This document shows, one piece after another, positions 3,390-27,618 of a stretch of 28,390 nt of DNA. The position numbers were made by a program, and so were the translations under genes. Source of the DNA: a virus. Below the pieces are notes generated by a model that saw nothing but the letters and a program-made list of their open reading frames with translations, did no database searches and had not been told where the DNA came from. The stretch is taken from the IMG/VR virus record IMGVR_UViG_3300010396_000001, positions 132,320 to 160,709 of that record. One strand, 5' to 3'. How positions within the stretch are numbered: position 1 is the first letter of the stretch; each line of letters starts with the position of its first letter.

Positions 3390-5681
3390 GTGAAGATCAG
3401 CTACTCACCCCGTGCGGCCAGCATCTCGGACCGGCGCGTGTTCGGCGACATGAGCCGGGTTATCGCGCACGGCGCGAGGGACCTGCGCGAGGAAGACCCG
3501 CAGGTCACCGAGATGCGCAAGAACCGGCGCGTCTCCAGCCGACTGGCCCGCACGGCGTCCCTGGGGAGCCGGACGGCCTCCGGCGGCGGCTCGGGCGCGG
3601 GATCGGGCTTCTCCGACATCCAGTTCGCCACCGGCCGGCCGCGGGACCCGCTGTTCTACTGGCGGCAGAACAACCTGCCTTACGACTTCAGCCAGAACGA
3701 GGAGCTGGCCAAGGTCCGCGCATTCTGCCGCCTGCTCTACCAGACCGATCCGATCATCGGCGCGTGCATCGACATCTTCTCCAAGTTCCCGGTCATGGGC
3801 TGGGAGCTGGAATGCAAGGACAGCAAGCTGGAGGACTTCTACGGCGAGCTGTTCTTCGACGATGGGGACAACTCCCTCGACTATGACGAGTTTCTCGTCG
3901 ATATCGGCCGCGAGTACTTTATCGCCGGAGAGGCATGGCCTTTCGCCACCTTCGACGAGGACCTCGGAATCTGGTCAGACGAGGAACTGCTCAACCCCGA
4001 TGACATCAAGGTCGAGCGGTCGCCGTTCCTGAAGGAGCCCAGGTATTTCATCAGGCTGCCGTGGACGATCCGGCAGATCCTCCAGACGCGGCAGCCCGCC
4101 TGGGAGTACAACAAGCTCATCAAGGAATACCCCGAGCTGGCCGCCTATACCTCCGAGAATTCCTTCATGCCGGTCAGCAATGTCCTGCTGAAGCAGCTGA
4201 AGTTCAAGGGCGATACCTTTAATATCCGCGGCCTGCCGCTGCTGACCAGGGCCATGCGCTCCATGCTGCAGCAGGAGATGCTGAACACCGCGATGGACGC
4301 CATCGCCGACCGGCTGTACACCCCGCTGATCCTGTGCAAGCTGGGCGCCAGCGCCTCCGACCTCGGCACCTCGGTCCCGTGGATCCCGACCGACGACGAC
4401 CTGGAGAACTTCGAGCTGGCCCTGGATGCCGCGCTGGCCGCGGACTTCAGGGCCCTGGTGTACAACTTCGGCGTCGAGATGGCCCCGGTGCTCGGCCGGG
4501 AGAACATGCCCGACCTGACCCCGGACTTCGAGCGGATCGAGGACCGGGTGCTGATGGTCTTCGGCCTGTCCCGCTCCCTGCTGGTCGGCGCCGGAACGGG
4601 CCAGACCTACGCCGCGGACGCGCTGAACCGCGACCTGGTCACCATGCTGATGACGCGCTACCAGCGATTCCTGACCCGGCACTTCCGCCAGCGCGCCATG
4701 ATCGTTGCCGAGGCCCAGGAGCACTACGACTTCGAGGAGCGCAACGGGCGCCGGTACGTGATCATGGAAGAGGTCCTGGAGACCGACGAGGAGACCGGCG
4801 AGAAGCACATCGTCGAGCAGCCCCGGCTGCTGGTTCCTGACCTGCGGTTCAAGACCCTCAACTTCCATGACGAGGACACCCGGCGCCAGTTCATTGAGGG
4901 CCTGCGCGCTACCGGCGTGCCGATCAGCCAGCGCACCCGCACCCGTGACCTCGGCATCGACCTGGACGAGGAGACCGAGCGGTCCAAGGACGAGGCAGTC
5001 TCCCAGATCGTCGATGAGCAGGAGGTCCGCAAGCGCGCCTACGTGGCGCTGAAGGATGCCGGCCTGCCGCTCGCCCCGGACCTGGTCGCCGACTTCGCTC
5101 CCCAGGCCCAGGTCGAGAACATGCCGCCGGGCATCGCCGCCGAGATGCTGATGCAGGAGCGCTTCGGCACCGACCCGACCGACATCCCCGACATCGCCCC
5201 CACCCCCGAGGACATGGCCGAGGAGGTGCCGCCCGACGCCGAGATGGGCTCCGAGGCCCCTCCGGACGAGGGGATGTACGAGGAAGGGGGCGAGGACCAG
5301 GACCAGCGGCCTGACGAGTCCGATGAGCAGCGGGCCGACATGCCGAAGAAGGGCGCCAGGATGAAGGACTACAGGGGGCGCGGGCTGCCGTCGCAGGCGG
5401 CGCTGTTCCGCCGCACCGCCCGCGTCCGGGATATCATCGCCACCCGCCGGATCGAGGAGGCGACCCTGCAGGCCGAGGCCGCACGCGAGGCACTGCTGGA
5501 TGGCCGCGAGGTGAGCTGGGAGATGCAGGTCCATGCCAAGGAGCATCCCGAGGCCAAGGACTGGGTATCCGGGCCCGAGGTGCCCTGCTACGCCACGCCG
5601 CCCCACGTCGGCGCCCGGCGCGAGCTGACTATCACTGATGACCTGGCGGACAGGGATCGCTATCCGGCGGTGAGGCGGTGA
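3390..5681 (+). CDS. Portal protein, 763 aa
   Basis: The GTG start at 3390 follows GGAGG (3378-3382) at spacing seven. The portal forms the dodecameric ring at the capsid vertex through which DNA enters and leaves. Support: the segment after residue 85 (DPLFYWRQNNLPYDF, then LLYQTDPIIGACIDIFS) followed by the 'yfIAGEAW', 'LNPDDIKVE' and 'TYAADALNRDL' elements is characteristic of portals of large tailed phages. The length of about 760 residues exceeds a typical 450-600 because of a C-terminal extension: a Pro/Asp/Glu-rich region (about residues 585-655), KKGAR, then FRRTAR (673-678) and a helical tail. The extension resembles the linker and motif of the 1735-2760 protein. Its last 50 bases overlap the end of a convergent minus-strand gene. 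The family is clear; the subfamily is not assigned. Confidence 0.88.
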   Translation: MKISYSPRAASISDRRVFGDMSRVIAHGARDLREEDPQVTEMRKNRRVSSRLARTASLGSRTASGGGSGAGSGFSDIQFATGRPRDPLFYWRQNNLPYDFSQNEELAKVRAFCRLLYQTDPIIGACIDIFSKFPVMGWELECKDSKLEDFYGELFFDDGDNSLDYDEFLVDIGREYFIAGEAWPFATFDEDLGIWSDEELLNPDDIKVERSPFLKEPRYFIRLPWTIRQILQTRQPAWEYNKLIKEYPELAAYTSENSFMPVSNVLLKQLKFKGDTFNIRGLPLLTRAMRSMLQQEMLNTAMDAIADRLYTPLILCKLGASASDLGTSVPWIPTDDDLENFELALDAALAADFRALVYNFGVEMAPVLGRENMPDLTPDFERIEDRVLMVFGLSRSLLVGAGTGQTYAADALNRDLVTMLMTRYQRFLTRHFRQRAMIVAEAQEHYDFEERNGRRYVIMEEVLETDEETGEKHIVEQPRLLVPDLRFKTLNFHDEDTRRQFIEGLRATGVPISQRTRTRDLGIDLDEETERSKDEAVSQIVDEQEVRKRAYVALKDAGLPLAPDLVADFAPQAQVENMPPGIAAEMLMQERFGTDPTDIPDIAPTPEDMAEEVPPDAEMGSEAPPDEGMYEEGGEDQDQRPDESDEQRADMPKKGARMKDYRGRGLPSQAALFRRTARVRDIIATRRIEEATLQAEAAREALLDGREVSWEMQVHAKEHPEAKDWVSGPEVPCYATPPHVGARRELTITDDLADRDRYPAVRR

Positions 5682-7742: not shown

Positions 7743-14299
<6,557 letters not shown>

Positions 14300-14303
<4 letters not shown>

Positions 14304-16923: not shown

Positions 16924-18465
16924 TCAGTTCGTCGGAGGCGCCGGGTACAGCGCCTTTCTGGCGTCATCCCAGGCCTTCCAGGCTGCGTCCTTAGCCTGAT
17001 CCGCGGTATACAGCTGCGCGTAGATCGAGCCGGCCGTCCCGTCGGTCCGGGCGGCCGAGGCGATCATGCGCCAGTTGCGCTCCAGCTGCGCATGGCGCTC
17101 AGCTGCCGCCAGGTAAGCGATCCACAGAGTCGCCAGGTTGGTCTGGGCTGGCGCTGCAGTCGCGGTCAGCACCGAGGGAGCCGACAGGGCGGCCTGCGCC
17201 AGGGCAGCGCACACGGCGCTCGCCGTCAGCACCGACGAGGCGCTCAGGGCAGCCGAGCCGAAGACCGTGGCCGGGCCCGCCGGAGGCGGCGGGGGAAGCT
17301 GCGCCGGCCGGGTCTTCCTGAAGGCCAGCGACGGGCGCCGCTTCGGCGCCAGCAGGGTGATCCGGGCGAGGAGTCCCCGGTAAAGCCGCGAGCGTGACGA
17401 TATGACCTGCGGGCGCCCGGCGCGCCGCATGCCGGGCGGGAGTGCTGCCGGTGGCGGGACGCGCCGCAGGACCCGGCGCTCCCCCTTCGCAGCCAGCCGG
17501 GATGCCCGGCGCCCGGTCACGCCATGGGAAACCGCTGCCGGCAGGATGACGGCCGCGGGCACCGCCTGCTGCGTCCGGCTGCGGACCGGGGAGGACGCGG
17601 GCCGGCGCCGGGACACTGGGGCGCGCAGGATGACGGCCGCGGGCACGGCAAGCACCGGCGGGCGCCCGGGCTCTCGCGTGCGCCGCAGGTCCGCGGTGCG
17701 CAGCGGCAGCCGCCGCGCCTGGGGCAGCACGGGGACCACCAGGGAGCCCTGCAGCTGCGGCCTGCGGATCCTGGAGACAGCCGATGCCGTGCGAGGCCGC
17801 TGCGCCTGCGGGACGAGCGTCACCGTGGCGTTTCCCGGCGCGATGGCCATGCACAGGCCTATCCACTCGCCGGCGCTTCCCTGTGTTCCCGAGAAGGTGA
17901 ACGTGCCCGTGGACGAGCTGATCTGGTAGCCCAGGACGCTGTTGTTGGCGGCGCTGAGTCCCTGGCTGGTCCAGGGAGCGCCCGGGAGCGTGGGCAGGCC
18001 GTTGAACTGGACCAGCAGCCCGAGGATGAACTCGGCCAGCTGAGTGGTGAGGGAAGTGGGCCCGGAGGAGACCGCGGTGCTGTTGCCGGTGGCGATGCCC
18101 GCGGTGCCGTCCAGGAAGGGCGAGCTGCCCAGGCCCGATACCTCGGCATACATCAGGCCGACGACCGCAGCCAGGGACCCGTTGGGCACGGAGATCGACA
18201 CGGCGCTCTGGCCGCCCGCGATGGACGGCTTCATCCAGGCTGCGCCGTAGACCTCGTTGCTGCTGTAGCCCGACAGCTCGGCAGCCGGGTTCGTCCAGCC
18301 GGTGGTCACGCCGCCCAGGGACGGACCGGAGGAGCTGATCGCGACATTGGAGGTAGAGAAGCTGGTGGGCAGCAGGAACAGCGTGTTGCCTGCGCCGGTT
18401 GCCTGCGAGAGGCTGCCGGAGAAGGCATTGGGGATCGACCCCGACTGCACTACGGCGATCGCCAC
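16924..18465 (-). CDS. Three-part surface-like protein (beta domain, basic Pro-rich stalk, LW-x-AY domain), 513 aa
   Basis: The GTG at 18465 (complement) has GGAGGG upstream. Residues 1-215 are Ser/Thr/Gly-rich and beta-like (GNTLFLLPTSFSTSNVAIS, YGAAWMKPSIAGG, YAEVSGLG, WIGLCMAIAPGN), similar in pattern to extracellular beta-sandwich modules in phage and actinobacterial surface proteins. Residues 220-385 are extremely Arg/Pro/Ala-rich and low in complexity, with a repeated VPAAVIL. Residues about 385-435 are Ala/Ser-rich. The last 72 are a copy of the LW-x-AY...APP domain (LWIAYLAAAERHAQL to LYPAPPTN). This resembles a receptor-binding or decorating protein with a stalk. Its minus-strand location within plus-strand head genes is unusual. 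The Arg-rich middle might be partly an artefact of GC skew, but the frame is open across the whole gene. Confidence 0.68.
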   Translation of the reverse strand: MAIAVVQSGSIPNAFSGSLSQATGAGNTLFLLPTSFSTSNVAISSSGPSLGGVTTGWTNPAAELSGYSSNEVYGAAWMKPSIAGGQSAVSISVPNGSLAAVVGLMYAEVSGLGSSPFLDGTAGIATGNSTAVSSGPTSLTTQLAEFILGLLVQFNGLPTLPGAPWTSQGLSAANNSVLGYQISSSTGTFTFSGTQGSAGEWIGLCMAIAPGNATVTLVPQAQRPRTASAVSRIRRPQLQGSLVVPVLPQARRLPLRTADLRRTREPGRPPVLAVPAAVILRAPVSRRRPASSPVRSRTQQAVPAAVILPAAVSHGVTGRRASRLAAKGERRVLRRVPPPAALPPGMRRAGRPQVISSRSRLYRGLLARITLLAPKRRPSLAFRKTRPAQLPPPPPAGPATVFGSAALSASSVLTASAVCAALAQAALSAPSVLTATAAPAQTNLATLWIAYLAAAERHAQLERNWRMIASAARTDGTAGSIYAQLYTADQAKDAAWKAWDDARKALYPAPPTN

Positions 18466-18545: not shown

Positions 18546-18578
18546 TTTGGCATGAGCAGCGGACAGGCAGGGGCGGTC

Positions 18579-19133
18579 ATGAATCAGCGGATGGCTAGCG
18601 ATGACCTGATGACCGAGATCAGCCAGCTGGCTGCCGAGCGGCAGCACGTGCTGACTGCCGACATGACCGGATCGAGGCGCCTGACCCTGGCCAGCGCGCT
18701 GAGCGTGCGGTCCCACCTGCAGGGGCGCCCGGCCCGCCACCCTGCCCAGGAACCTGCCCCGGCTCCGGTGCGCAGTGCCCCGGCCGACGGTTCTCTTCCT
18801 CCCGTCACGGCCTTCCGGCACGTGCCGCCTGGCCGGTACGCCGTCGAGAGCCGGACCGGGAACAACGACCTGGACTTCTTCGAGGTGCGCCGGCCCGAGG
18901 AGGGCAAGTGGGCGGGCTACACCTTCGTCGAGCGGATCATCGGCGGCCATGACAACGCGCCGGTCCGCGGCATTGCCGCCCGGCGGGCACTGCAGGCCAT
19001 CGTGCGCGCGGGGTTCGATGAGTCCAGGCTGCGGGCCGCTCAGGAGCTGGGGCTGTGCAAGGAGTGCGGGCGCCACCTGACCGATGAGGAGTCGCGACTG
19101 GCGGGCATGGGGCCCTACTGCAGGAACAAGTAA
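18579..19133 (+). CDS. DUF6011-type protein, 184 aa, independent transcription unit
   Basis: Two starts are possible. ATG 18552 would give a nearly leaderless message from P3. ATG 18579 has AGGGG (18569-18573) ahead and gives a leader of about 27 bases, matching the leaders at P1 and P2, so I prefer it. After a helical N-terminus and a Pro-rich linker, the protein has a beta-rich core (VPPGRYAVESRTGNNDLDFF, GKWAGYTFVERIIGG), a helix (ARRALQAIVRAG), and ends LCKECGRHLTDEESRLAGMG with PYCRNK. The closing C-x2-C-G-R-x-L-T-D-E-x-S...G-x-G-x-x-C pattern is that of DUF6011, a small zinc-binding module frequent in actinobacteria and their phages, often attached to DNA-associated proteins. A hairpin follows the gene. 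Confidence 0.78.
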   Translation: MNQRMASDDLMTEISQLAAERQHVLTADMTGSRRLTLASALSVRSHLQGRPARHPAQEPAPAPVRSAPADGSLPPVTAFRHVPPGRYAVESRTGNNDLDFFEVRRPEEGKWAGYTFVERIIGGHDNAPVRGIAARRALQAIVRAGFDESRLRAAQELGLCKECGRHLTDEESRLAGMGPYCRNK

Positions 19134-19973: not shown

Positions 19974-22900
19974 ATGCTGCGGAAGTACGCCAGTCTTGCT
20001 GTCCTGGATGCCTGGCAGGTCCCGGCGCGGCCGGGGCCTGCCTCGCTGCGCAAGACCGCTCACCGGGTGGACTTCGAGTACACCCCGCGGCCGGGCTACC
20101 TGTACGTGCGCTCGCGGGCGATCTCCAGCCGGGCCAACGACAACCACGACGAGTTCCCGGCCGCCGAGATCGAGAAGTCCTACAAGACCTTCCTCGGCAA
20201 GCCGGTCTTCGTCAACCACCACAACGCCAACCACCGCCGGGCCCGCGGCGTGATCGTCGCGGTCGCCCTGCACCGTGACCGCAACCCGGACGGCACTCCC
20301 GACACCTGGGCCGAGGTCCTGCAGGAGATCGACGCGCGCCGCTTCCCCAAGCTGGCCCAGGCCATTCTGGCCGGCCGGGTGGACCGCACCTCCATGGGCG
20401 TGGACGTCGAGGAGTCGCAGTGCACTGCCTGCGGCAACAAGGCCACCGACCCGGCTCAGTACTGCCGTCACCTGCCCGCCCTGAAGGGCCAGAAGATCCG
20501 CAGGCGCGGCAGCGACGGCAAGCTCCGCGAGGAGATCATCCGCGAGATCTGCCGGGGCCTGTCCTTCTTCGAGAACAGCCTGCTGGTCGAGGAGCCCGCT
20601 GACCCGACGGCCTACGTGCTCGGCACCCCTGATGACCGCGGCCTGAAGATGACCGCGGCGGCCCTGCCGAAGAGCCTGCGGTTCCGGTTCATGCACGCCA
20701 GCGAGACCATGTCCGGGTCCCACGAGCTGACTGCGCACGTGCCCGGCCGGGACAAGCCGGTCGGCGAGATCAAGTGGCACCCCGCCAGCGGCGCCGTGGA
20801 CCTTGTCGGCACCCATCCCTCTTATCAGGGCCGCGGGCTGGCCACCCACCTGTGGAACCGGGCTCACGAGATCTCGGCCGAGCGCGGCTTCCCGTTTCCC
20901 CGGCACACCGGCAGCGAGCCCGGAGACGCACCGGGCGTCCAGACCCCGGAGGGCGCCCAGTGGGCCCGGCACGCTCCTAACCCCGGCTACGTGCACGGCC
21001 AGGAGCCGATGATCCCCCGCCAGCGGGGCAACCAGACCCGCGACATCCGGCCCGAGCTGATCGACCCGGCCGCGACCGACATGGCCGAGCACATGATCAG
21101 CGACCACGGGTTCTACGACTCGGCCAGCCGGATCCGGGCCTCAGATCCTGAGGCCGTCGCAGCCATGCATGACGCCCAGCATGCCGGGCCCGTCCGGCGC
21201 CCGCACCGTCACGCGGCACTGCCGCCGCACGTCAACTGGGACGCCGTCACCGGCCTGCAGCATGTCGTTCCCGTGACATTCAGCGGCGACTCGTCAGAGC
21301 CCTATGAGTTCCCGATGGGCAGCCCGCATACTCACGACGTCTGCCGCGATCACCTTCCCTCAGTAATGTCGCTGCCGGAAGGCGAGGCGCGGATTCACCC
21401 GGAGAACCCGCGCCGGGGAACCTGCGTTTACTGCGGGCGCGGCCCCGAGGGCATCATCGGCAATCCCCAGAACCTGGACGTGCCGAGCCGCGAGGGCGGC
21501 GGCACTTATCCTTATTCTCAGCGTCACCTGCCGGAGATGCTGCGCCAGCTAGGAGAAGGTCAGCACGACTTGAGCCCCTACGACCCGCACAACCCGAAGT
21601 TTGATTACCATTCGGGAATCGACCAGCGGCTGCCCTACCGCATGAACTCGCTGCGCCGCGAGGCGATCACGGGCGAGGAGGCGGAGCCTGGCCACAGCAT
21701 CTGGGCCGTCCCGAACGGCGAGAGCCCGGCCGCCGACGAGGTCTACCAGAACATGCACACCCGCGATCCGGGCGAGCACGGCGAGGGCTGGTACAAGGGC
21801 ACGGCCTATCACGGGCCGTACCACATCATCCGGCACCCCGAGACCCGGTCCACCCACGTGGTGGACGCCCGCGGCCGGGACACCCGGCCCGGCAGCCCCG
21901 GCGGCTACGGCAACTGGGAGCGCGACGGCAACTGGGGCGAGAGCGCCGCCGAGGACCACTGGCGCGGCCTGGAGTCAGTCGGCCCCGACCACGCCCGGAC
22001 CGGCACTCACGAGGATCCCTCGTACGCCCTGCAGAAGGAGCGCACCCCAGCCTTCCCGCACTCGCGCATCGATCCCGAGGACCTGCGCCGGGCCGAGCGC
22101 CCGGACGCCCGCGTGCACAAGCCGGAAGGGCACAGTCCGGAGGATGAGTGGCACGGGCCCTATGAGGTCGTGAGGCACCCGGAGACCAGCAGGTTCCACG
22201 TGGTGGACAACGCCGGGCGCGTTGCCCCCCATGGGTGGCAGGGACACCCGACGCAGATGGGAGCAGAGCGCTCTCGCGATTACACTGACCGCCGCCAGCA
22301 GTCCAAGGACCGGGCCAAGGGCATCGCCGGCGCCATGTGGGAGGGCATGCAGCAGGTCTTCGACCCCGGCTCGACCCCCGACAGCCGGCAGTCCGACAGG
22401 AACCTGGCCGAGGGTCAGGAGCTGATGACCCGCTATGCGGGCGGGCGCGGGCGCGTGAAATTCGACCCGGATGAAGATGGCGGCGCGCCCTACTATCACC
22501 GCGAGCACTACCTGCCGAACGGGAATGAGTCCGGCTGGTACGTAAAGCATTACGGCGGCGCTCACGCGGACATTTATCATCACGCCACGGGTGATGAATC
22601 GGGTCATGACATGATCCGATTCCCCGAGCATCCTGATGACGAGAACTCAATGGCGCCGCGGATTCACCCGGACTTCGACGACATCAGCATGGGCAAGGCG
22701 CTGAAGGACTGGCACGACGACACCGAGGCCGGGGCACGCCGGCACTGGGAGGACGCGAGCCCCGGCTATGGCGGTCATCCGGTCGGGGACGCCCGGATCA
22801 TCCGCTGGAAGCGGCGCTACCCCAACGGGCGCCCTCCCCGCCCGCAGCAGCACGAGGGCGCCCGCTACGAGAGCCCGGCCGACCACCCGTTCTTTCAGGC

Positions 22901-24275
22901 CAACCCGGTCAGCAAGGAGCACCTCAAGCACGCCTTTTACGACTCGACGCCGGACGAGCACGAGCAGGGCAGCCGCTGGTACCCCGATGCCCACCACGTG
23001 GCTACGGCTATCGCCGGGGGCGACTCTGCCCGTGGAGCCGGCCTGGTAGCCGCTTACTCTCCGCGCACCGCGTGGCCATCCAACCTGTTTAACGCCTCGA
23101 AGGCTCATCGGGAGAACCGGGCCTTCGGCGGCCCCGGCGAGGGCGCCATGGGCATGCACCGCAACCTGGCCGCCCCGATTATCGCCGGAGTCCACCACTC
23201 CGAGGCCTTCTCCCGCTCCGCGCCCAAGATCCGGGCCTTTGCTCACCTGATCGAGCACGGCGGCGATCTTCCCGAGGACGTCGGCACCGACCGCGAGCAC
23301 GTTGTCATCGACCGGCATGCCCTGTCCGCCGCCATCGGCCGCCGGGTTACTGACGACGACCTCAGCCGGGTCCCGCTCGACCATCCGCGCTTCTACGAGC
23401 ACGTGGCCAGTACCTACCGTGCCGCGGCACGGGACCTGTCGGCTGATCTCGGCCTCCACATCCCCTCCCACCGGCTCCAGGCCACCGTCTGGAAGCGTCA
23501 GCTGCGCCTGAACGCTGCTGAGGACGCCGGGCAGCCCTGGGGTGGCCGAGGTCGTAACAAGCGCACGGAGAACGCCTGGACCCGCTGGAACCAGCACGCC
23601 CAGGAGCACCACCCCGAACTGGGGCCGGAGAACATGCACCGCCAGGGAGCCCAGCGCATGGCCTACGGGGAGACTCGCGTGCCGCCGCAGATTGACACGC
23701 TGCGGGCCGAGGAGTGCCCGGTCTGCGGCGAGGACCAGGTGTGGACCGGCCAGCGCTGCCCCGTGTGCGGATACGTCAGCCCGCCGGACCTGTTCCGGGA
23801 CCCGGACACCAGCCGGGCCATGCAGGTCCGCGAGCAGCTCGACAGCGGCGACGTGGACATCCCGCCGGAGGGCCAGGGCTCCTGGCCTGATGCCGACGCC
23901 CAGCTCTACCACCCCGACCAGATCGCGCCCAACGGCGTGCCCGGCCCGGATGCCACCGTCCAGGATCCCGGTGACGGCCAGCTGCCCCAGGAGGGCGGGG
24001 AGGGGGCCCTGGCCTGCCCCGAGTGCGGCGCTCAGTTCGGGCCCGAGGACGGCCTGGCCGAGGGTGACCCGTGCCCCGAGTGCGGCCAGGGCCAGCTGGT
24101 GGCCGCCGACTTCGCCGGGGACGAGGGCGAGCTGCCGCCGGACGAGGAGATGGCGGAAGAGGGCGAGGAGCTGCCGCCGGGCGAGGAGCTGCCTGAGGAT
24201 GAGGAAGAGCCGCCCGAGGAGGAGGATGAGGGCGAGGATGACGAGCCTGACCCCAGGGAGAAGAAGCGCAAGTGA
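19974..24275 (+). CDS. Prohead protease fused to a multidomain C-terminal array, 1433 aa
   Basis: I chose ATG 19974 because AGAGGAGG (19961-19968) precedes it; ATG 19947 lacks a site. Residues 30-220 are a capsid maturation protease: FEYTPRPGYLYVRSRAISS, KPVFVNHHN with candidate catalytic H82 (or H83), DRTSMGVDVEE with S140, and a zinc-like insert C150-x2-C153...C164-x-H166. Usual length is 200-300 residues, so about 1200 are extra. These are a GNAT-like motif A (Q285-G-R-G288-L-A290), a His4 finger (H373/H378/H399/H403), a duplicated module (GPYHIIRHPET from G614; GPYEVVRHPET from G728), and a region about 985-1180 (RWYPDAHH, AAYSPRTAWPSN, VIDRHALSAA with D1113) resembling HhH-GPD glycosylase-like phage domains. 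Zinc ribbons start at C1248 and C1348, and an acidic tail ends KKRK. Protease call firm; other domains tentative. Confidence 0.82.
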   Translation: MLRKYASLAVLDAWQVPARPGPASLRKTAHRVDFEYTPRPGYLYVRSRAISSRANDNHDEFPAAEIEKSYKTFLGKPVFVNHHNANHRRARGVIVAVALHRDRNPDGTPDTWAEVLQEIDARRFPKLAQAILAGRVDRTSMGVDVEESQCTACGNKATDPAQYCRHLPALKGQKIRRRGSDGKLREEIIREICRGLSFFENSLLVEEPADPTAYVLGTPDDRGLKMTAAALPKSLRFRFMHASETMSGSHELTAHVPGRDKPVGEIKWHPASGAVDLVGTHPSYQGRGLATHLWNRAHEISAERGFPFPRHTGSEPGDAPGVQTPEGAQWARHAPNPGYVHGQEPMIPRQRGNQTRDIRPELIDPAATDMAEHMISDHGFYDSASRIRASDPEAVAAMHDAQHAGPVRRPHRHAALPPHVNWDAVTGLQHVVPVTFSGDSSEPYEFPMGSPHTHDVCRDHLPSVMSLPEGEARIHPENPRRGTCVYCGRGPEGIIGNPQNLDVPSREGGGTYPYSQRHLPEMLRQLGEGQHDLSPYDPHNPKFDYHSGIDQRLPYRMNSLRREAITGEEAEPGHSIWAVPNGESPAADEVYQNMHTRDPGEHGEGWYKGTAYHGPYHIIRHPETRSTHVVDARGRDTRPGSPGGYGNWERDGNWGESAAEDHWRGLESVGPDHARTGTHEDPSYALQKERTPAFPHSRIDPEDLRRAERPDARVHKPEGHSPEDEWHGPYEVVRHPETSRFHVVDNAGRVAPHGWQGHPTQMGAERSRDYTDRRQQSKDRAKGIAGAMWEGMQQVFDPGSTPDSRQSDRNLAEGQELMTRYAGGRGRVKFDPDEDGGAPYYHREHYLPNGNESGWYVKHYGGAHADIYHHATGDESGHDMIRFPEHPDDENSMAPRIHPDFDDISMGKALKDWHDDTEAGARRHWEDASPGYGGHPVGDARIIRWKRRYPNGRPPRPQQHEGARYESPADHPFFQANPVSKEHLKHAFYDSTPDEHEQGSRWYPDAHHVATAIAGGDSARGAGLVAAYSPRTAWPSNLFNASKAHRENRAFGGPGEGAMGMHRNLAAPIIAGVHHSEAFSRSAPKIRAFAHLIEHGGDLPEDVGTDREHVVIDRHALSAAIGRRVTDDDLSRVPLDHPRFYEHVASTYRAAARDLSADLGLHIPSHRLQATVWKRQLRLNAAEDAGQPWGGRGRNKRTENAWTRWNQHAQEHHPELGPENMHRQGAQRMAYGETRVPPQIDTLRAEECPVCGEDQVWTGQRCPVCGYVSPPDLFRDPDTSRAMQVREQLDSGDVDIPPEGQGSWPDADAQLYHPDQIAPNGVPGPDATVQDPGDGQLPQEGGEGALACPECGAQFGPEDGLAEGDPCPECGQGQLVAADFAGDEGELPPDEEMAEEGEELPPGEELPEDEEEPPEEEDEGEDDEPDPREKKRK

Positions 24276-25666: not shown

Positions 25667-26581
25667 ATGGGTGGCGCCAAGTCAGCTGCTCGCGAGATGC
25701 AGGCGCAGCATGTTGCTGCCCTGATCCGCGAGAACCAGATCCTGCGCGCTCAGCTGCATTTCGTGGCCGACCTGGCCGGCGTGCGCCCGGAGCTGGAGCA
25801 GATCCGCCGCCAGGCGGACATGAACAACCCGGCGTCCCCGGTTCCGGACCCGCCGGAGGAGCCTCCGAGCGAGACCACCGAGGAGACCCTGGCGCCGGAC
25901 GCCAACGGGGACGCCTCGCGGCCCGGTGCCGAGCCCGGCTCGCTGACCCGCGTCCCGGCCGAGCAGATGACCACGTCGATGACCCCCGGCGTGGAGATCC
26001 AGACTCCCCCGGCGTCCAACCTGGTCTCGGTGACGGCCCCGGTCCAGGGCACCAACCCCGACCAGGACGGCGGGGTGCCGATCCAGCAGCGCCGCATCGA
26101 GACCGACGTGCGCATCGACCCGGATCCGCTCAAGGCCGGGGGCCCCGGTATCGGCGGCATCGGCGGCAACGGGGCCGCGTTCCCGTGGATGCTGGATGCC
26201 CGCGAGCCCGGCCAACAGGGCGGCCAGCAGAAGGCAGCGGCCCTGCAGCCGCCCGCCTCGGCTGAGGACGTCTCCGGGGCGCGCACGATGGCCTCTATCC
26301 GGCTGGCCCGGCTGCGGGTGCACGCGGGCCTGGCCCGCGGCGACGAGCTGGTCCTCGGCACGCAGATCGAGCGTGACGCCTCACTGTCCACGCCGGCGAT
26401 CGAGCACGAGATCGGCATCCTGCAGCAGGTGGCCGCCGTGCGCCCGCCGGAGCGCCCGCGGCCGATGGCCCGCCAGGCCGCCCGCAGCGCGCCCTCCCTC
26501 GCGCCGACGATGGCGCCGGTCTATGCCTCGGCCTCCGCGGCCGGGGACAGCGACGACCTCTCGGACCTGTTCAGTGACTGA
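25667..26581 (+). CDS. Scaffold-like head assembly protein, 304 aa
   Basis: ATG 25667 follows GGAAGGGG. The N-terminus is a coiled-coil-like helix (QAQHVAALIRENQILRAQLH). The middle is a long Pro/Glu/Gly-rich disordered region (DPPEEPPSETTEETLAPDAN; GGPGIGGIGGNGAAFPWM). The C-terminal part has helices (ASIRLARLRVHAGLARGDEL, AIEHEIGILQQVAAV) and an acidic end (DSDDLSDLFSD). Placement after the protease and before the capsid gene, a coiled-coil N-terminus and disorder are the usual marks of a scaffolding protein, which templates shell assembly and is then removed. No direct family match is claimed; a minor capsid protein is the alternative. Confidence 0.58.
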   Translation: MGGAKSAAREMQAQHVAALIRENQILRAQLHFVADLAGVRPELEQIRRQADMNNPASPVPDPPEEPPSETTEETLAPDANGDASRPGAEPGSLTRVPAEQMTTSMTPGVEIQTPPASNLVSVTAPVQGTNPDQDGGVPIQQRRIETDVRIDPDPLKAGGPGIGGIGGNGAAFPWMLDAREPGQQGGQQKAAALQPPASAEDVSGARTMASIRLARLRVHAGLARGDELVLGTQIERDASLSTPAIEHEIGILQQVAAVRPPERPRPMARQAARSAPSLAPTMAPVYASASAAGDSDDLSDLFSD

Positions 26582-26870: not shown

Positions 26871-26938
26871 CGCCCGGAAGAGTCAGCAGGCAGATGGCAG
26901 CGAGCCTGAGCCGGATGCAGAAGGAGATACCGGAATGA
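26867..26938 (+). CDS. Very short coupled ORF, 23 aa
   Basis: ATG 26867 overlaps the upstream stop (ATGA) and its own stop overlaps the next ATG (26935-26938, ATGA). AGAAGG lies directly upstream. The peptide is basic and amphipathic (MTPGRVSRQMAASLSRMQKE plus IPE). It may be a genuine small protein or only a coupling cistron that carries ribosomes from 26574-26870 to 26935. Too short for codon statistics. Confidence 0.42.
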   Translation: MTPGRVSRQMAASLSRMQKEIPE

Positions 26939-27618
26939 TCCGGACCTATCTGGCCAACGACTACATCAAGCGGACGATCCGCCCGCTGTACTCGTGGACC
27001 CAGGCGACGCCAAAGCCATGCTTCCTGGACCCGGCGTGGACCCGGGCCGTGCCGATCTGGCCCGGCATGGGCTTCATCCGCACCGGCGGCGACCTGGTCA
27101 CGCTCGCGGGCGCCAACAGCGTCCAGATGGGCAGCGCCAAGACCATGTACGGCACCGCGGGCAGCGGCAACAACGGCGTCGTGCTGAGCGCCAACGAGCC
27201 CTACCCGGTCTACGGCCTGGGCGCCCTGTACGTCGGCGGCGACGGCGTGGACGAGCTGCTCTACGCCGGCATCAACGCCTTCGCGGTGTGGGTCCTCGGC
27301 CCGGATGCCGAGTTCGAGATCCTCGCCCCGGCGTTCGACCCCACCTCCACGTGGACCGACCCGCCCGCGATGGGCACCGGTGCCACCAACTACCCCGGCT
27401 CGCAGCTGATCGGCGTCGCCACGCAGAACGGCGGCGGCACGGGCACCGGCCTGCAGACCGGCACCCTGCAGGGCCAGCTGGTGCCGTGGAGCAACGGCAC
27501 CGGCGTCTCCTCGCCGGTCGCCCGGCTGCTGAAGGTGAACTCCTCGACCAAGATCACCATCGGCGGCCTCAGCTTCACCGACCTGGCCAGCAACGCCAAC
27601 CTGGCGACCACCAACTAG
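26935..27618 (+). CDS. Probable virion protein next to the capsid gene, 227 aa
   Basis: ATG 26935 follows GGAG and overlaps the preceding short ORF. The sequence is beta-rich, Gly/Thr/Asn-rich and low in charge (WPGMGFIRTGGDLVTLAG, GNNGVVLSANEPYPVYGLGA, TGTGLQTGTLQGQLVPW, SSTKITIGGLSFTDLASN). Genes of this size and composition directly upstream of the major capsid gene often encode a capsid decoration or head-stabilising protein, which binds the outer shell after expansion. That role is inferred from composition and order, not from a recognised family. The gap to the capsid start is 55 bases with GGAAGG. Confidence 0.6.
   Translation: MIRTYLANDYIKRTIRPLYSWTQATPKPCFLDPAWTRAVPIWPGMGFIRTGGDLVTLAGANSVQMGSAKTMYGTAGSGNNGVVLSANEPYPVYGLGALYVGGDGVDELLYAGINAFAVWVLGPDAEFEILAPAFDPTSTWTDPPAMGTGATNYPGSQLIGVATQNGGGTGTGLQTGTLQGQLVPWSNGTGVSSPVARLLKVNSSTKITIGGLSFTDLASNANLATTN

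Follow-up and report, generated by a model that had tools for sequence, protein, structure and literature searches.

The precursor of herpesvirus assemblin (pUL26/pUL80a) combines an N-terminal serine protease with a scaffold-like C-terminus and cleaves itself at Ala-Ser; we know of no herpesvirus in which this precursor holds a cargo insert. Among phages, T4 gp21, SPN3US gp245 and the phiKZ-type proteases act within the prohead, where a single short motif directs the cuts that they make in themselves, in the portal and in internal proteins destined for ejection. In SPN3US the enzyme cleaves off its own C-terminal propeptide and matures both portal and ejection proteins, all at one motif (PMC10052503). 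Polyvalent proteins, in turn, are multidomain phage proteins in which GNAT, ART, NUDIX, ParB and peptidase modules are fused to head proteins such as MuF or portal (PMC5512222, Iyer et al. 2017); in that paper the word 'prohead' occurs in the reference list only. Here we analyse a protein of 1433 residues in which a predicted head-maturation protease leads a long polyprotein. It is encoded at 19974-24275 of the final 28.4 kb (28,390 nucleotides, hereafter the window) of a 160,709-base viral contig, IMG/VR record IMGVR_UViG_3300010396_000001. Features lie on the plus strand unless stated otherwise.

Substrates of the T4, SPN3US and phiKZ-type proteases are separate proteins, whereas here the cargo is covalently attached. 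The SPN3US motif is A-x-E and the candidate motif here is [KR]TA; by analogy, SPN3US processing would be a direct precedent for the logic that we propose. The herpesvirus precursor shares the plan of an N-terminal protease and a scaffold-like C-terminus, and assemblin too has Ala at P1; the likeness in fold is weak (E 0.07). As in polyvalent proteins, a single phage protein unites several enzyme modules with a head component, and the modules are typical of injected polyvalent proteins (PMC5512222). In contrast to those proteins, it is anchored on the head-maturation protease itself and has a defined slot. The system is best described as a variant of the polyvalent and ejection-protein theme with the head-maturation protease itself as carrier. 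Mycobacteriophage I3 gp103, ScoobyDoobyDoo gp90 and, from Rhodococcus phages, Finch gp17 and E3 gp77 resemble the window in protease, junction motif and capsid-side gene order but differ in their inserts (none in E3 gp77; peptidase-like and L5 gp82-like in I3 gp103). E3 gp77 is annotated as 'prohead protease' and the others as hypothetical; in the literature searched, no cargo slot or [KR]TA motif is described for these four proteins.

A protease-like N-terminus and about 1200 further residues occupy one unbroken frame, 1433 codons without a stop. A GGAGG ribosome-binding site stands directly 5' of the ATG at 19974, third-position guanine-plus-cytosine content is 0.79-0.94 across every 600-base block, and differences from relatives fall mostly at third codon positions. 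Given these signals, we take 19974-24275 to be a single coding frame, in which nothing points to a frameshift. An earlier note, made from the letters of the window alone, had proposed such a protease with about 1200 extra residues; homologs establish that it is real and conserved in its lineage.

The protease core spans residues 30-216 (20061-20621). Residues ~30-216 match PHROG 2774 (E 1e-61) and the head-maturation protease family PHROG 18299 (E 1.5e-19), and the domain is related to the Rhodococcus phage E3 'prohead protease'. H82 and S140, the candidate catalytic His and Ser, are invariant in an alignment of 45 homologs, as are the cysteines and histidine of a metal-site-like insert within the protease (C150-x2-C153 ... 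C164-x-H166; 20421-20471), a putative metal site. Pfam S78 gave no match to the protease domain, and PDB sequence searches returned no homolog for either domain queried. The model of the region is disordered to residue ~28, and its best PDB fold match is pseudorabies virus assemblin (pUL26N, 4v08), a weak one (probability 0.96, E 0.07, template-modelling score 0.35 on target). On this sequence evidence the N-terminus is a predicted head-maturation serine protease, conserved throughout its phage family. Records of 297 phages, 196 of which are mycobacteriophages, contain this protease family. The phages of the family are large, and most named members infect actinobacteria.

Behind the protease lies a slot of variable content, closed by a conserved junction. 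The set of homologs comprises 81 distinct proteins, 66 of which have both the protease and the same C-terminal junction, with the consensus A-[YFW]GE-x-x-x-P-x-x-[VI]-[DN]-T-L (short form A-YGETxxPxxVDTLR). In the window the junction is QRMA followed by YGETRVPPQIDTLR (23652-23705), with Ala before YGE. The insert between protease and junction ranges from -2 to 1501 residues and measures 1003 in the window. Pfam and PHROG searches of 59 inserts identified DUF7178 (31), tape-measure/endolysin-type peptidase-like modules (8), NUDIX (5), GNAT (5), L5 gp82 (3), DUF6582 (2), Arr-ms (2), methyltransferase (2) and ParB. Near-identical proteases can carry very different inserts: L027 and L029 are 96% identical in the protease with inserts of 199 vs 547 residues, and L040 and L044 are 89% identical with inserts of 818 vs 231 residues. 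The earlier note had regarded the length of the protease as exceptional, but a length survey shows long forms to be the norm in this clade. Homologs in named phages have 895-1408 residues, and because the longest of these, I3 gp103 (1408), is a known though unannotated relative, length alone is not new. Short versions occur in Phage G (300 residues) and Erwinia phage Alexandra (~260). The longest protease-led single frames that we saw in IMG/VR are those of L025 and L026, with 3240 and 3116 residues.

The window's slot holds a GNAT acetyltransferase-like domain at residues 231-335 (20664-20978) that contains YQGRGLA, an instance of the GNAT motif Q/R-x-x-G-x-G/A. Its Pfam score is at or just below the cut-off, related regions occur at other positions in L024 and L038, and GNAT structures (4crz, 9mto, 5wje) are among the fold matches of the model (probability 0.96-0.97, E 0.1-0.5); this part of the earlier note is thereby supported. 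Four other parts that it had named are present by reading. A four-histidine H..H / H..H stretch at residues 370-403 (21081-21182) may be a small metal finger. A 24-residue segment with the pattern GPYxxxRHPETxxxHVVD is duplicated at residues 612-635 (21807-21878) and 726-749 (22149-22220), identical at 15 of 24 positions. Beyond the junction come two zinc-ribbon-like CxxC...CxxC modules (23715-24086), putative zinc sites with a DZR match below the cut-off (E 0.005), and then an acidic, scaffold-like tail of 51 residues, 28 of them D or E (24120-24272). Slot residues 569-962 (in 1442-residue numbering) are shared at full length with L010 only, and for the middle part of the frame, 20655-22910, named phages offer no match.

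DUF7178 also lies in the slot (22827-23639; PF23802, E 1.6e-30). The earlier note had labelled this part (residues 985-1180) as resembling HhH-GPD-type glycosylases, and this is the only one of its labels to prove incorrect. The domain is all-helical, with K134 and D162-R163-H164 invariant among 31 aligned sequences (domain numbering), and its model is confident (pLDDT, the predicted local distance difference test, 93.5). Because this model finds no fold match in the PDB (best E 0.95), the HhH-GPD identity fails the fold test, and we keep the name DUF7178. The likeness to HhH-GPD glycosylases is limited to a K...DxH resemblance, although some solo DUF7178 relatives are annotated 'glycosylase'. 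In BFVD the model matches phage proteins, some of them large and labelled ART-PolyVal-like or large polyvalent protein associated. No paper in the literature searched mentions 'DUF7178'. The domain occurs in 34 of the 81 homologous proteins, and I3, ScoobyDoobyDoo and E3 have it in other genes, including the late protein I3 gp110 and a separate E3 gene. Overall, the reading of a multi-module protease fusion in the earlier note stands, without the exceptional length and without the glycosylase.

When all 8000 tripeptides are ranked by over-representation in the large head-module proteins of eight genomes, KTA comes first (48 vs 9.9 expected) and RTA second (57 vs 18.2), with expectation computed from each protein's own composition, open reading frames called with a simple script, and homologous sites that are not independent. 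The remaining proteins of the same genomes are at or near chance (KTA 57 vs 53.7, RTA 160 vs 130). This enrichment in the head module is a new finding. Four held-out genomes contain 28 copies of [KR]TA[GAS] in head proteins against 4.3 expected, and 29 against 24.4 in their other proteins; one of the four, ScoobyDoobyDoo, had been partly inspected for the motif beforehand (protease fusion and neighbours), and the other three give 16 vs 3.5 in head proteins, with G005 alone not enriched (4 vs 2.0). The control motifs [KR]SA, [KR]VA and [KR]TG are not clearly head-specific, and the SPN3US-like motif A-x-E, tried as a candidate and set aside, is barely commoner in head proteins (6.8 vs 5.2 per 1000 residues). 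[KR]TA also stands at the near end of the slot: of 67 non-redundant segments, 27 have it within 40 residues past the protease, compared with 2.3 after shuffling and 5.1 for windows placed at random in these proteins. At the far end, 50 of 53 distinct junctions have Ala directly before [YFW]GE, and 43 have K or R at P2-P4. The window protein has a candidate N-terminal processing site, LRKTA before H, just ahead of the ordered protease core (20046-20063), and a candidate protease/cargo cleavage site, GLKMTA before AAL, of the weak form K-x-T-A (20640-20666). Because the head-specific [KR]TA clusters at the boundary of protease and cargo, release of cargo through self-cleavage is plausible.

Together, these patterns suggest that the family loads proteins into heads by joining them to the protease. 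We propose a self-processing head-maturation protease-scaffold polyprotein with a cargo slot, whose cargo is packaged, freed and delivered, and regard this as probable, if by a modest degree. Zinc ribbons, the acidic tail and a C-terminal piece, encoded here by a separate gene, make up a conserved, scaffold-like C-terminal part, and the slot between it and the protease gains and loses modules fast; in the window it holds GNAT, the repeated module and DUF7178. As the protease acts inside the prohead, anything fused to it would enter too. There the protease would cut [KR]TA or [KR]xA-type sites on both sides of the slot, and the freed cargo would stay in the head beside the DNA and enter the next host. 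We infer that [KR]TA is the scissile site, that cargo is packaged and that it acts in the host. A broader version falls a little short of an even chance: the protease may be a general loading device, in which any module placed in a [KR]xA-flanked slot is carried in, cut free and injected, and the [KR]TA code is also borne by the portal and by further giant proteins of the head. If this is true, the set of packaged proteins could be read from sequence.

Several observations weigh against this proposal. The Foldseek E-values for the protease model are weak. [KR]TA was first noticed by eye while reading relatives, the held-out genomes share homology with those in which it was discovered, and counts at the YGE junction are inflated by shared ancestry. 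The window protein itself has weak sites only (RKTA 26-29, KMTA 225-228, QRMA 1227-1230), its other RTA falling within the DUF7178 fold. Under the common rule [KR]TA[GAS] is not significant in the window genome (3 vs 0.8, p 0.36), although [KR]TA is enriched there (10 vs 2.5, p 0.018). The literature searched holds no virion proteomics for any member of the phage group. In some lineages, finally, the parts are separate: at locus L057 protease, DUF7178, YGET tail and C-terminus each have a gene of their own, four in a row, so the fusion can be dispensed with. In the window, too, the C-terminus that is fused in close relatives is a gene of its own (25667-26581; blastp to L017, L023, L018 and others, 52-63% identity, E down to 1e-66); aligned by hhalign, the C-termini of four distant phages do not match it. 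With the split in L057, this points to a polyprotein made of parts that can be joined or come apart.

Could [KR]TA be something other than a cleavage site? It might be a core-targeting or scaffold-binding signal, for which the head targeting sequences of T4 are a precedent of the non-catalytic kind, or else a by-product of composition or shared ancestry, and cleavage at the motif is our deduction from sequence. Against these readings, expectation came from the composition of each protein itself, and the motif recurs right after the protease in the segments counted above. We consider a non-cleavage role fairly unlikely. Alternatively, the polyprotein could be scaffold and structure only, with head genes fused for co-assembly and stoichiometry and with modules that act in prohead assembly or are degraded and expelled. 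The separate, adjacent and overlapping genes of L057, the acidic, scaffold-like C-terminus, and the removal of long propeptides in SPN3US (PMC10052503) would all fit such an arrangement. Yet the inserts are enzyme-like and are swapped quickly among near-identical proteases, unlike scaffold, and the same module types recur in other giant proteins of the window's genome; we judge a purely structural role unlikely. It is more improbable still that the cargo consists of cytoplasmic enzymes active before assembly, fused to an abundant late protein with no consequence for packaging. The presence of DUF7178 in I3 gp110 and in the separate E3 gene does imply that its function needs no fusion to the protease. 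Expression with the head module, a protease that should be drawn into the prohead, and a processing-like motif specific to head-module proteins nevertheless argue against such enzymes. That an assembly or frame error fused separate genes, as the unusual length might suggest, is virtually impossible, because the same architecture occurs on dozens of independent contigs and in isolated phages, which excludes a mis-join, and the coding signal is uniform.

If the protease-scaffold polyprotein does carry cargo, it would account for proteins of 900-3200 residues, mostly 'hypothetical', in well-studied laboratory phages (cluster C mycobacteriophages and relatives). It would also make it possible to tell from sequence which proteins undergo processing and packaging, and would reveal a plug-in system by which phage heads are naturally loaded with proteins.

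The protease gene lies between the portal and major capsid genes, and its placement near minor and major capsid genes is kept in I3, ScoobyDoobyDoo, Finch, E3 and the window. The portal protein (3390-5681; PHROG 2833, E 7e-142) has a C-terminal extension and three [KR]TA sites. Downstream of the fusion are the position of the minor capsid protein gene (26935-27618; relatives of Myrna gp98 and I3 gp104 by tblastn) and the major capsid protein, truncated where the contig stops (27698-28390; 70% identity to that of L057, 54% to I3). Myrna gp98 is a minor capsid protein, and the neighbouring gp97 goes unmentioned in the same source (PMC7150772).

Other large proteins are encoded elsewhere on the window's contig (G000:C1). 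A multi-module head-module protein of 2186 residues (7743-14303) is the counterpart of I3 gp102 (tblastn at 12027-12353 and 13953-14240); by reading, it contains a SWIM-like segment and recurring finger-like stretches rich in His, the same module style as the protease fusion. Two giant proteins upstream of the window, in the L092 region, have classic polyvalent architecture: one of 1879 residues (G000:C1:106136-111775) combines ParB with an Arr-type ADP-ribosyltransferase, and one of 2066 residues (G000:C1:111981-118181) has Arr, NUDIX and 2'-5' RNA ligase domains. A 1266-residue protein at L093 (G000:C1:125984-129784), in which no domain was recognised and [KR]TA occurs seven times, is by its sequence a prime candidate substrate of the protease.

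Upstream of the protease, a 193-residue gene with a DUF6011 C-terminus (18552-19133) is found on either strand in relatives, which suggests a mobile or invertible position. On the minus strand, a 513-residue frame at 16924-18465 stands amid the forward gene block, and its first half resembles a real surface- or adhesin-type protein. Genes for tRNA-Met and tRNA-Asn lie at 610-807.

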